This document shows positions 8,057 to 30,667 of a DNA stretch of 37,525 nt, one piece after another. This stretch comes from Alphaproteobacteria bacterium (GTDB taxonomy: Bacteria > Pseudomonadota > Alphaproteobacteria > Micavibrionales > UBA2020): assembly GCA_030682495.1 (NCBI GenBank), contig JAUXOC010000081.1, forward strand, positions 1-37,525. The letters run 5' to 3'. Both the position numbers and the translations under genes were made by a program. Position 1 is the first letter of the stretch. Every line of letters starts with the position of its first letter. Below the pieces are notes generated by a model, which did no database searches, had not been told where the DNA came from, and saw nothing but the letters and a program-made list of their open reading frames with translations.

Positions 8057-8071
8057 TTAACTTAAATTTAA
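8057..8071. promoter_or_regulatory. Perfect CtrA-type box (TTAA-N7-TTAA) upstream of carD
   Basis: TTAA (8057-8060), seven bases, TTAA (8068-8071). This matches the full CtrA consensus of alphaproteobacteria exactly. The site overlaps a 12-bp palindrome CTTAAATTTAAG (8061-8072). It is 137 nt upstream of the carD ATG and just upstream of the candidate promoter at 8080. The match is seen in the sequence; binding by CtrA is an inference. Confidence 0.6.
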
Positions 8072-8208: not shown

Positions 8209-9078
8209 ATGGCAAAGACATCCAAAGCGAAGGCGAAACCGGTTAAGAAGCCCGCGGCCAAAACCGCAGCCAAAACGGTCAAGAAGCCTTCTGCCGCCGC
8301 CAAGCCGGTCGCAAAAGCCAAACCGGTCGCCAAAAAACCGACCCCTGTCGCCAAGAAATCAAAACCGGCTCCTGCGCCCAAGGCGGCTGCTAAACCGGCT
8401 GTCAAAAAGCCCGCTCCCGCGCCGGTCAAGGCCGCTGTCAAGAAGGCAGCCCCCGCCCCTGTGGCCGTGAAGCCTAAACAGGTGCCCGTCAAAGCCGCCG
8501 AGCCGTCGAAACTTCCCCTTGGCGTCAAAAAGCCTGCACCCACCGTGCAAGCCCTCGCGCCGATGCCCGAAGCCAAGAAGCCGGAGAAGTTTGACTTCGC
8601 CGCAGGCGATTTCGTGGTCTATCCCGCGCATGGCGTCGGCTTTGTCGAAGGCGTCGAAACCCAGACCATCGCTGGCATGGAAATCACGCTTTACACTATT
8701 TGCTTTGAAAAAGACCGTATGCGCCTGAAATTGCCGATTTCCAAAGTGAAAGCTTCCGGCCTGCGCAAGCTGTCTTCCAAAGACCGTCTCAAGGACGCGC
8801 TGGCCACACTGCAAGGTCGTTCGCAGACCCGCCGCATCATGTGGAGCCGCCGCGCACAGGAATACGAAGCAAAGATCAACTCAGGTGACCCCGTTTCTAT
8901 CGCAGAAGTCCTGCGTGACCTGAAACGCGAAGGCGATCAGTCGGAACAGTCCTACAGCGAACGCCAGATTTATCAGGCTGCGCTGGAGCGTCTTGCCCGC
9001 GAAGTTGCCGCGATCGAGAAAATCGACGAAAAGAAAGCTGCAGAAAAGCTTGAGGCCGTTCTTTCCAACGTCGCTTGA
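8209..9078 (+). CDS. carD: CarD/CdnL-type RNA polymerase-binding regulator with a histone H1-like N-terminal tail
   Basis: A 289-aa protein in two parts. Residues 1-125 are almost only Lys, Ala, Pro and Val with recurrent K-K-P-A / A-K-P-V units, like the tails of histone H1 and bacterial H1-like proteins. Residues 126-289 form a complete CarD protein: the RID/Tudor-like domain starts F-A-A-G-D-F-V-V-Y-P-A-H-G-V-G at 130-144, and the helical C-terminal domain holds W-S-R-R at 212-215, matching the conserved tryptophan that props open the promoter bubble. CarD stabilises open complexes by touching the RNAP beta lobe. Normal alphaproteobacterial CarD is near 170 aa, so the tail is an addition that probably gives non-specific DNA binding. 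ATG 8209 has GAGG 8 nt upstream. A terminator follows. Confidence 0.92.
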   Translation: MAKTSKAKAKPVKKPAAKTAAKTVKKPSAAAKPVAKAKPVAKKPTPVAKKSKPAPAPKAAAKPAVKKPAPAPVKAAVKKAAPAPVAVKPKQVPVKAAEPSKLPLGVKKPAPTVQALAPMPEAKKPEKFDFAAGDFVVYPAHGVGFVEGVETQTIAGMEITLYTICFEKDRMRLKLPISKVKASGLRKLSSKDRLKDALATLQGRSQTRRIMWSRRAQEYEAKINSGDPVSIAEVLRDLKREGDQSEQSYSERQIYQAALERLAREVAAIEKIDEKKAAEKLEAVLSNVA

Positions 9079-14771: not shown

Positions 14772-15887
14772 CTAAATGATGTCGGGGTTATTGACCCAGG
14801 TCTTCATGATACGCTGGACATCAAAATCCCGAATGGCGTCGAAGTTTTTGAGTGCCATCGCCAGTTCGCGCTGATCCACAATCTTGTCGCCCGTACGGAT
14901 ACCACGGCTGAGCAGGAAGATCGACGCAAATTCCGATTTCATCATGCCAATATAACGGCAGGCGACCACAAAAGGCTTGCCGCCGTCTTTTTGCACCATC
15001 TTGATAACATGATCGGGCATCAGACCCGTGCGCTCGGCGAAGAGTGCGAGGAAGAAACCCACCTGTCCACGGCGCAGTGTTTTAATCATCAAATCAGCGC
15101 TGATGTCTTTGCGTTCCTCGAACCGGCGCGCGATCAAAACCATATCCGGCGTTGCTTCGCGCATGCCTTTGGCTTCGTTGCTCAGCTCGTGGATCAGGTC
15201 TTCCAGCGACTGTTCCAGCACCTGCGGCGGGATCAGGAATTTTTCTGCGATTTCCTTGCGCAGCGCCTGAGAGACGATCATGTAAAGATCAATCGCAATG
15301 TCTGTGTCGACTTCAGGGCGACGCAGCAGCGGCGCTTGCAATTCTTCGGAACGCAATGACGCCTTGGCCAATTTGCGCATCGATGCTTTTTGCAGATGGA
15401 CGCGTTGGTTATCGACAAGATTAAGCATCGTCTGCACATCACCCGTATCAATCAAACGGTCGGAGACGAGCGGGCTGAGGGTATCGCGCTGCGCAATCAC
15501 GCGCGAATGCTCCTCGCCTTTCGATGAAATGATATAAACAAGGTCAACGTCATTGAGCACGGGGCTGTGCATCAGCACCTTGCGCGCCACGGTGATATGA
15601 TCGTTGGCGAGATAGACCATAACTTCGGGCGGGATATTTTTTTGCACCGACAGGCGTTCTGCCAGCGCTTCGCGCAGGTCAAGCTCTGCCTGACGGATAA
15701 GGTTTAGAAGAATTTCGCTGGCGAGGCTTTGCTCGGTATCGTTCAATTGGCGGTCATCAAAAAATTGTGAAACAGCTTTAGCAAGCTTTTGACGACCGGC
15801 ATCCGAAGTATCCTGCGCGCATGACAGCAGTTCTTTTGGATCCAAGATATTCACTCCCCTGAATATATCTTTAGATGGAAATTCCAT
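14772..15887 (-). CDS. DUF2336 family protein
   Basis: A 371-aa all-helical protein matching DUF2336, a family known mainly from alphaproteobacteria and made of HEAT-like helical repeats of unknown function. Typical features are the repeated D-x-x-x-x-V-R-x-x-L-A-E-like helices (for example R-E-A-L-A-E-R-L), a segment on leaving the active region P-P-E-V-M-V-Y-L-A-N-D, and L-I-D-T-G-D-V-Q-T-M-L-N-L-V-D-N. Some family members contain cyclic-nucleotide or PilZ links, but none is visible here. ATG 15887 has an AAGGA ribosome site 9 nt upstream. A GTG at 15962 would add a very basic 25-residue tail and is less likely. Confidence 0.8.
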   Translation of the reverse strand: MEFPSKDIFRGVNILDPKELLSCAQDTSDAGRQKLAKAVSQFFDDRQLNDTEQSLASEILLNLIRQAELDLREALAERLSVQKNIPPEVMVYLANDHITVARKVLMHSPVLNDVDLVYIISSKGEEHSRVIAQRDTLSPLVSDRLIDTGDVQTMLNLVDNQRVHLQKASMRKLAKASLRSEELQAPLLRRPEVDTDIAIDLYMIVSQALRKEIAEKFLIPPQVLEQSLEDLIHELSNEAKGMREATPDMVLIARRFEERKDISADLMIKTLRRGQVGFFLALFAERTGLMPDHVIKMVQKDGGKPFVVACRYIGMMKSEFASIFLLSRGIRTGDKIVDQRELAMALKNFDAIRDFDVQRIMKTWVNNPDII

Positions 15888-16129
15888 CCGTCGATTCCTT
15901 TTTGGTTTTTTGTTCTTGGCGGCGCGCGCCCTCCTCGGCGGCATGAAAAATAACTTGATCACCTATTTAAAATTTTACGCAAATTACGTTAAAGAATGAT
16001 AAATATTGGATGAAATTCGTAAAATCAATCGCTTGCAACAGGTACCAGACGTACAGACTCCAGTTCAAGAAACGGATTCCGCACTGCATCAGATTCTCAG
16101 AGGGAGATTGAAAGGCCTTTTTTGAGGCA

Positions 16130-16144
16130 TTAACACTGCGTTAA
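16130..16144 (+). promoter_or_regulatory. Perfect CtrA-type box overlapping the promoter of the gene at 16222
   Basis: TTAA (16130-16133), CACTGCG, TTAA (16141-16144): an exact TTAA-N7-TTAA. It covers the position where the -35 of the TATGAT promoter should be, which is the typical layout of CtrA-activated promoters. An identical 11-mer TTAACACTGCG recurs at 37073-37083 but there the second half-site is missing. Confidence 0.7.
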
Positions 16145-16162
16145 TAAATGTCGTGCTATGAT
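16134..16162 (+). promoter_or_regulatory. Activator-dependent promoter of the gene at 16222
   Basis: A good -10 element TATGAT (16157-16162) with no recognisable -35 at the right spacing (CACTGC at 16134-16139); the -35 slot lies within the CtrA box. Start would be near 16169, about 50 nt before the ATG. Confidence 0.55.
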
Positions 16163-16221
16163 TAAAGTCTGGAGTGCGATTTCATTCCTTTGTTTTGTGC
16201 GTAAGCGAAGGAGCTTTTTTG

Positions 16222-16485
16222 ATGGTCAACCCTGTCGGTTCAAGCGGCGGCTACCAGTCCTATGCTTATCAGCAGCAGATCAGTCCTGTGCAAGAACCAC
16301 GTGGCGGTGATAACCGCGTGGAAAAGCGCGAGGCGCCTGCGGCAGATACGCAACGTGGCGATCAACGCAGCCTCGCTTCACGAGACGAGGATACGACGAC
16401 GCGCTCCCGCGCCAATGACGATGGACAAGCGCGCGAAAACCGCGACACAGGCACACGCGGTCAAACGCTGGACGTAACCGTATAA
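16222..16485 (+). CDS. Small, highly charged, probably disordered protein
   Basis: An 87-aa product opening M-V-N-P-V-G-S-S-G-G-Y-Q-S-Y-A-Y-Q-Q-Q and then rich in Arg, Asp, Glu, Thr and Gly without hydrophobic core, so it is likely disordered in solution. No family recognised. ATG 16222 is chosen over 16174 because a GAAGGAG ribosome site lies 9 nt upstream and the promoter start near 16169 falls before it. The CtrA-type promoter suggests cell-cycle or motility-phase expression. The short N-terminal pattern looks like that of small flagella-associated or surface proteins, but I cannot assign it. A terminator lies 82 nt downstream. Confidence 0.65.
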   Translation: MVNPVGSSGGYQSYAYQQQISPVQEPRGGDNRVEKREAPAADTQRGDQRSLASRDEDTTTRSRANDDGQARENRDTGTRGQTLDVTV

Positions 16486-16567
16486 TTATTGGCACGATAT
16501 GCAGGATGCTCTGCTGACTGACTTTCTTCGGACAACTCACGTTGCTTTTCTTTTTCGCTTGACCTCG

Positions 16568-16594
16568 CCCCCGCGCCCATACGCGGGGGTTTGT
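16568..16594 (+). terminator. Rho-independent terminator after the small protein gene
   Basis: 8-bp stem CCCCCGCG (16568-16575) and CGCGGGGG (16582-16589), 6-nt loop, followed by TTTGTTTT. It separates the small gene from the formyltransferase gene. Confidence 0.85.
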
Positions 16595-28814: not shown

Positions 28815-28829
28815 TTAACCAGGCGTTAA
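28815..28829 (+). promoter_or_regulatory. Perfect CtrA-type box upstream of the HExxH protein gene
   Basis: TTAA (28815-28818), CCAGGCG, TTAA (28826-28829): exact TTAA-N7-TTAA with the TTAACC form common in CtrA targets. A -10-like TAAAAT (28840-28845) lies at a distance that puts the -35 slot (28817-28822) inside the box, as at CtrA-activated promoters. It is 42 nt from the ATG at 28871. Confidence 0.65.
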
Positions 28830-28870
28830 AAAAATATGGTAAAATGGCAATATCTTTTGAATGAGGGTGC

Positions 28871-30667
28871 ATGAGCTGGCTCAAAAAAATCTTCGGCCAA
28901 GCCGCGCGGAAAAGTTATTTTCCGCCACCCATTGCCGATGGCCCGCCGCAGCCCGAGGGCTATTGGTCGATGATTGTTGACGAGAACGGCGAAGCCGTCA
29001 CCAACCGTCCGCCCACCGCAACCGATTTCCTCGCCCGCCGGCCAATAGACTATATCGATGGCGGCACCCAGCCCGCCTTTAAAAAAGATCCGCTCCTGAA
29101 CGAGCGGGAGAACACAAAGAATCTCGTCGATTACGAAATTCGCAGCCAAAAGAACAAAGAGCATCTGCAAAAGGCCGTCTTTCTGCTGTCACAAACCGAC
29201 GATGGCGCAAGGTTGCTATCCAAGGCAAAACAAATGGAATTTCGTCTTGTCTTCAATGATGATCTTTGCAAGGAAAGAAACGCGTCTGGCCTTTGCGATT
29301 ACGCCAACAAGCAAATCCCGCTCGCCAGCGGCTCCTCCGCCGCCAATGTCGCCCTGACACTGAAACACGAGCTTCAGCATATGGAAGACATCAAAAACGG
29401 CATGCGCTATGGCCTGTCAGATACGCCGCGCAGCGCCATCTTGCTTGACCGTGTGCTTGAAGGGAATGCCCGCGTATCCGAAGCCGTCGCGGCGGCGGAA
29501 GCACTGCTCGGCTCCCCGCAAGGCCCCGCGCGGCAATTCCGCACCGCCGCGCTGTTCAACGAGTTTTGGCGCGCCTGCCCGCAAATGGCGCAAGAGGCAC
29601 AGAGCGCACTGCCGCAAGCGGCAGAGAACAAATGGACAACTTTCGCGGCAAAAGTTCTGCCTGCCTATTTCCGCGAAACAGCCACGCTCGCGCTTTACGA
29701 ACGGGACTACTTCAAATTTATCGATAAATACGTGCCCGACACATCAAACTCGATCAAAGCCGCCAAGGATGGCGATTATCAGCACCGCGCTGCACACCAG
29801 AGATACGTTGATTCTGCGCGTAATAATGCGAATACCCTTTTCACGCAAGACCGCTGGAACGCCGAAAACATCGCCCCGCTGCTGACCATTCGCGGTATTC
29901 CGTATATGAAAGAGATCACAGGAAAGGGATTTTCACTGGCCAGCGAGACTGCAACCGCACTCACAGCAACTGGGCCCGCGCTGTTTGAAAAGCTGAAACA
30001 AAACATTCGCACCGTCTTGCCGGAAAGTGATAAACCCGCCCTGCTGGATTTACCTGTACAAAAATCTGCACTTGCCTTGCCCGCGCTGCCCAACCCTTAC
30101 ACCGGATATACATCGAAGCTGGAGACAGAGGCCTTCGCCGCGATACAGATGCCCCATCGCCTCGACGGCAGCAGACTGTCGAACGGTCAGCGCAGCCACG
30201 AAAGCACAACACAGCTTTTCAATGATGCCTTTAAAGCCATGAAAAGCGGCGCCACCGATACCGACCGGATACACTATGTCATCAACAGCTACCTGCATCA
30301 AAATGCAGGAGTTGCAAACGTGCGCGGACTGGTCGGCAACCTTCTTGAAGCGGGCTTGCGCGCGCCCATCGGCGCCTTCCCCGAAAAATATTTAGTCGAT
30401 CTGCGTGCCCGTGCCACCTTGAGCGTGCGCTTGTTCAAAGAAGGCCAAGCCTCTGACATCAGCCCGAAGGAAGCAAAGCTGCTCGACCACTGGCAGCAGA
30501 TGAAAGACAAAGGCATGGATCCCGTCTGGATCGATGCGGCGAACAAGCAAGCCTCTTGGGTTGCGAAAGATGGCCGCAGCGACTTCTACGAAAAAGAAGT
30601 GCTGGGCTACCTGAAAGACAAACCCGTCGCTGAAAAAGCCGCTATCCCCGCGCAAAAAAGACAGTAG
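28871..30667 (+). CDS. Putative zinc metallopeptidase with HExxH motif, otherwise unknown
   Basis: A 598-aa protein with no signal peptide; a short hydrophobic/basic start S-W-L-K-K-I-F-G-Q may be amphipathic. The only catalytic-looking feature is L-T-L-K-H-E-L-Q-H-M-E-D: His166, Glu167 and His170 form an HExxH zinc site, with possible third ligands Glu197 or Glu204 in the helix L-E-G-N-A-R-V-S-E-A about 27-34 residues later, a gluzincin-type spacing. I recall a putative metallopeptidase family of this look (DUF6782), but cannot confirm it here. The remaining 390 residues are mostly helical with no recognised domain. A GAGG ribosome site precedes ATG 28871. The CtrA box upstream suggests developmental control. 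Its substrate is unknown. Confidence 0.7.
   Translation: MSWLKKIFGQAARKSYFPPPIADGPPQPEGYWSMIVDENGEAVTNRPPTATDFLARRPIDYIDGGTQPAFKKDPLLNERENTKNLVDYEIRSQKNKEHLQKAVFLLSQTDDGARLLSKAKQMEFRLVFNDDLCKERNASGLCDYANKQIPLASGSSAANVALTLKHELQHMEDIKNGMRYGLSDTPRSAILLDRVLEGNARVSEAVAAAEALLGSPQGPARQFRTAALFNEFWRACPQMAQEAQSALPQAAENKWTTFAAKVLPAYFRETATLALYERDYFKFIDKYVPDTSNSIKAAKDGDYQHRAAHQRYVDSARNNANTLFTQDRWNAENIAPLLTIRGIPYMKEITGKGFSLASETATALTATGPALFEKLKQNIRTVLPESDKPALLDLPVQKSALALPALPNPYTGYTSKLETEAFAAIQMPHRLDGSRLSNGQRSHESTTQLFNDAFKAMKSGATDTDRIHYVINSYLHQNAGVANVRGLVGNLLEAGLRAPIGAFPEKYLVDLRARATLSVRLFKEGQASDISPKEAKLLDHWQQMKDKGMDPVWIDAANKQASWVAKDGRSDFYEKEVLGYLKDKPVAEKAAIPAQKRQ

Follow-up and report, generated by a model that had tools for sequence, protein, structure and literature searches.

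The locus considered here raises the question of whether a CtrA-type box, standing in the place of a -35 element, acts as the promoter of a small gene of no recognised family. In many alphaproteobacteria, swimming and the cell cycle follow a programme whose master regulator is CtrA, and the site predicts a new member of that programme in the Micavibrio-like bacteria, an order with predators among its members. A literature search for CtrA together with Micavibrio found no paper.

Layout and recurrence of the promoter site

The box, TTAA-CACTGCG-TTAA (TTAACACTGCGTTAA), lies at positions 16130-16144 on the plus strand of the window (the whole 37,525-nucleotide stretch of DNA that was analysed), where it overlaps the -35 position and matches the full CtrA consensus exactly, as originally predicted. 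Its second half-site is separated by N12 from the -10 hexamer TATGAT (16157-16162), the correct distance according to the same prediction, and a TG at 16154-16155 makes this an extended -10 element, TGC-TATGAT (TGC 16154-16156; whole element 16154-16162, plus strand). From the position of the -10, transcription is predicted to start within 16166-16171 (plus strand), which puts the 5' end of the box at about -36 to -41. The box had also been described as the only visible -35, and no TTGACA-like hexamer was present 16-18 nt upstream of TATGAT, nor did a consensus scan list an ordinary sigma-70 promoter at 16130-16162. Downstream on the same strand, a Shine-Dalgarno sequence read as AAGGAG (16208-16213) is followed by a gene for an 87-aa disordered protein with an ATG start (16222-16485) and by an intrinsic terminator (16567-16590) closing a one-gene transcript, a similar hairpin being found in the sister species. 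No Rfam family was matched anywhere in the window.

The likeness to CtrA-activated promoters of Caulobacter, also part of the original prediction, was upheld by comparison with published promoters (PMC4287350, PMC11264516). As in the CtrA-activated promoters of Caulobacter crescentus, TTAA-N7-TTAA covers the -35 position with its 5' end at about -39, the full CtrA motif of Caulobacter ctrA P2 being located at -39 (PMC4287350). Unlike the Caulobacter promoters, however, the present one has a different target gene, carries a TGN-type extended -10 in 14/14 homologues and belongs to a genome in which SciP was not detected. The promoter is of the ordinary CtrA type, and what is new is its target, an orphan disordered protein.

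Pattern searches of the window and of the genome, from which all regulon statistics given here are derived, established how often such boxes would be expected. Within the window, TTAA-N7-TTAA was observed three times against 0.19 expected from shuffles, and none of 100 shuffles reached three. The genome-wide scan that accompanied the original prediction as a proposed check returned 58 occurrences in 2.52 Mb; TTAA pairs at the six spacings from 8 to 13 numbered 80 altogether (13.3 per spacing), making a spacing of 7 enriched 4.35-fold over their mean (Poisson P ~1.6e-19). The composite of box, N11 or N12 and TANNNT occurred 21 times on both strands, where the boxes alone would predict about 3.6 and a reversed-pattern control gave 2 matches. 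The box at 16130-16144 is not a chance occurrence.

Conservation in relatives, on which the original prediction had been made to depend, was examined in homologues of the small gene, which were found in 14/18 genomes of its own family and in 33/142 genomes of the order Micavibrionales, most of the genomes compared being drafts. Four family genomes (G001, G010, G015 and G017) gave no homologue, possibly through incompleteness or because the genes are short and diverged. In all 14 family homologues the full box was present, 64-95 nt before the matched start and with the same geometry, 11-12 nt separating it from TANNNT; the regular expression used demanded box and TANNNT, and every homologue passed. 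The TG of the extended -10 was likewise present in 14/14, although the search did not require it. The eight half-site bases were invariant (identity 1.00), the N7 and flanks being variable (0.33 for N7 and 0.25 for the 15 nt upstream); at 25-33% identity, N7 and upstream flank are, on this comparison, near random and saturated. Owing to their shared ancestry, these homologues cannot be counted as 14 independent cases, even though the DNA around the site is saturated with changes. Furthermore, across 110 kb of DNA surrounding the gene in eight of these family genomes, 13/13 composite sites lay upstream of the small gene or of a divergent DUF2336 gene; the counts of 14 and 13 both come from a single set of genomes.

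In other families, TTAA-N11/12-TANNNT was retained in 24/29 homologues, against 13% in shuffles and 4/29 in reversed sequence, where the 29 mix two partly overlapping sets and may include close relatives. The distal half-site was mostly degenerate in these families (TAAA, GTAA, CTAA or AAAA, for example), similar to the degenerate Caulobacter motifs AAAA-N7-TTAA at fliL and CTAA-N7-TTAA at fliQ (PMC11264516). The five exceptions all belonged to family f5 (L044-L048) and appear to have TTTA in place of the proximal TTAA, at the same N11 from the -10, which suggests that the CtrA motif has drifted or that a different regulator acts there. Judged from sequence, the comparison with relatives is the strongest evidence for the promoter.

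CtrA and competing readings of the box

The original prediction would also have fallen had the genome lacked ctrA. A 236-aa protein encoded on C81 was found to match the CtrA equivalog model NF045991 at 401.8 bits (cut-off 350), as the only protein of the genome above that cut-off, and its best PDB match was CtrA (4qpj). Matches above the cut-off were also obtained in 29/35 relatives searched, and among the remainder several are incomplete genomes with fragments. SciP (DUF1153), the CtrA partner in Caulobacter, was not found in the genome by a search that does detect it in Caulobacter. The genome contains fliF, and about 290-330 bp before its start four overlapping boxes are arranged in tandem; genes for TadE and for a receiver-domain protein likewise follow composite sites. 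Since CtrA typically controls flagella and pili, the boxes before fliF and TadE support reading the motif as a CtrA box here.

Taken with the site, its geometry, its conservation and the genome-wide enrichment, the presence of ctrA makes it very probable that 16130-16162 is a CtrA-activated promoter. Phosphorylated CtrA would bind both TTAA half-sites over the -35 position and substitute for the -35 element for sigma-70 RNA polymerase, and the extended -10 would then give a one-gene transcript for the 87-aa intrinsically disordered protein.

It could be argued that the box is bound, in place of CtrA, by some other member of the OmpR/PhoB family whose motif resembles that of CtrA. Five other Trans_reg_C proteins are encoded in the genome, the evidence examined consists of the DNA motif and the gene, and another OmpR-family regulator could read TTAA half-sites. 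TTAA-N7-TTAA at -35 is, however, the documented CtrA motif, the C81 protein alone passes the CtrA model cut-off, and the motif recurs before the flagellar and pilus genes fliF and TadE, so such a regulator appears very unlikely. A similarly small probability, if anything a little lower, attaches to the reading that CtrA represses the small gene or that the box is there chiefly for DUF2336, the divergent gene. CtrA does repress some promoters and a site on the DUF2336 side exists, but that site is DUF2336's own and oriented towards it, and in Caulobacter CtrA represses from half-sites that cover the -10 (PMC4287350), whereas here a full box covers the -35 of the small gene. The least credible reading, with hardly any weight, takes the TTAA repeats as incidental to an ordinary, AT-rich sigma-70 promoter that has an UP-like element: the region is indeed AT-rich and an extended -10 promoter can do without a -35, yet this would account neither for eight invariant half-site positions in 14 homologues whose neighbouring positions show 25-33% identity nor for the genome-wide enrichment of the exact 7-nt spacing.

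The disordered protein and its divergent neighbour

Compared with the sister species, 40/55 base differences within 16222-16485 fell at third codon positions, and the 44 changed codons comprised 32 synonymous and 12 non-synonymous changes. This third-position bias and synonymous excess show that the open reading frame is coding. The product had been described as a highly charged protein of 87 aa; the length was correct, but with 30% charged residues, 15% Q+N and 40% G+S+T+A+P it is better described as low-complexity and disordered. AlphaFold, run with 16 sequences, gave a mean pLDDT of 56.9, a pTM of 0.13 and no secondary structure, confidence rising to about 71 only in blocks 31-40 and 81-87. 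These blocks contain both conserved motifs, namely a centre with the family consensus QTQPRQAPAA (RVEKREAPAA in the protein here) and a C-terminal RGxxLDVxV-type tail, RGxx(L/V)(D)(V/I/L)x(V/A), which is among the most conserved parts of the protein. As predicted, it fell into no recognised family: no Pfam or NCBIfam family scored above cut-off for the 87-aa protein, and no Pfam family did so for any of 16 homologues, itself included. A Pfam CENP-N match (E 0.099) was rejected as chance. Among 148 distinct ORFs examined in this genome (G000), an LDVTV/LDITV tail was present only in the 87-aa protein and in one 257-aa protein. The latter (L060, 1577-2347, plus strand) ends in LDITV, has a CtrA composite promoter and matches no Pfam family.

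A feature beyond the original prediction is the gene diverging from the small one, 14772-15887 on the minus strand, together with a mirrored CtrA-type promoter. Its 371-aa product contains a DUF2336 domain (PF10098, 169.6 bits, cut-off 34.6) and is a distant relative of Caulobacter SpbR, a protein counted among the regulators of dimorphic development (PMC12700997). It shares the Pfam family of SpbR but matches the SpbR equivalog model (NF052659) weakly, at 143.1 bits against a cut-off of 400, and by these scores is not SpbR itself. The gene diverges from the small gene in many orthologous loci, and different families share the gene order rpoH, nuclease-like, pgk, DUF2336 with the small gene diverging from it, AMP nucleosidase, ftsY, mtaB, dapF; the names were mostly read from the sequences and not from domain scans. 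The site facing DUF2336 (15972-16003, minus strand) is a half-site version, TTTA-TCATTCT-TTAA-N11-TAAAAT, which is found in this genome and the sister species; most of it falls within a stretch of about 39 bp that differs at a single position between the two. Full boxes with N11/12 and TANNNT face DUF2336 in seven family genomes, six of which were seen again in a second locus set. A second DUF2336 gene of the genome had no box nearby, even with one mismatch allowed.

Because CtrA-type promoters face both genes, CtrA probably drives both in this family, and the two proteins would then be produced at the same time, in the motile or pre-divisional phase when CtrA is active. A bidirectional design for the whole order was considered and rejected, since no DUF2336-facing site was found in most other families; as far as these genomes show, only the window's own family has such a design. 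Divergent CtrA-controlled promoters are known from Rhodobacter sphaeroides (flgB2-fliI2 and fliL2-fliF2, in one case with two independent sites; PMC6180460), and the locus resembles them in that a divergent gene pair is, here by prediction, under CtrA. The R. sphaeroides pairs, however, consist of flagellar genes with very short intergenic regions, whereas DUF2336 and the orphan gene are about 330 bp apart with one site each. A literature search for DUF2336 together with CtrA found nothing.

The small protein may be an adaptor or binding partner, a substrate of regulated degradation or an exported protein. It is possible, though tentative, that through its two short linear motifs, in the centre and the C-terminal tail, it acts as a phase-specific binding partner or adaptor, perhaps of the DUF2336 protein. 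An equally tentative proposal is that it is no DUF2336 partner and is exported or rapidly degraded via its tail, as a type I secretion signal or ClpXP degron. This proposal is favoured by the conservation of the extreme C-terminus and by its ending in Asp and hydrophobic residues, which is reminiscent of known type I secretion tails and of hydrophobic degrons; on the other hand, no obvious exporter or adaptor gene adjoins the small gene. Somewhat more speculative is the idea of a lineage-specific module of Micavibrionales, timed by CtrA, in which the DUF2336 protein and the disordered protein act at the cell pole while the cell is motile and seeking prey; the small protein would then be the prototype of a new adaptor family that relies on short motifs.

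Other boxed genes

Membership of the small gene in a cell-cycle, motility or attack-phase regulon, as originally proposed, is plausible from the boxes before fliF, TadE, receiver-domain and putative metallopeptidase genes. In M. aeruginosavorus, highly expressed attack-phase genes are mostly hypothetical (PMC3189940). A conserved CtrA-type promoter offers a testable handle on an orphan gene and on motile-phase control in a predator-containing order, and the geometry TTAA-N7-TTAA, N11/12, TANNNT is usable for predicting the remaining regulon from sequence.

Several composite sites also occur immediately upstream of genes encoding a putative metallopeptidase (DUF6782), a predicted protein glutaminase, a cyclic nucleotide phosphodiesterase-like protein and large unnamed proteins (G000 L061, L065, L074, L064, L071 and L076), which might be predation or secretion genes. 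Within the window, a second CtrA-type promoter at 28815-28845 (TTAACCAGGCGTTAA, N10, TAAAAT, with TGG before the -10) lies 25 nt upstream of a putative metallopeptidase gene (28871-30667, plus strand; DUF6782, 56.5 bits). A third full box at 8057-8071 (TTAACTTAAATTTAA) is located upstream of a CarD-like gene at 8209 and has no -10 at the CtrA distance. In the array upstream of fliF (G000:C81:15597-15644, L145), five TTAA half-sites follow one another in exact 11-bp steps.
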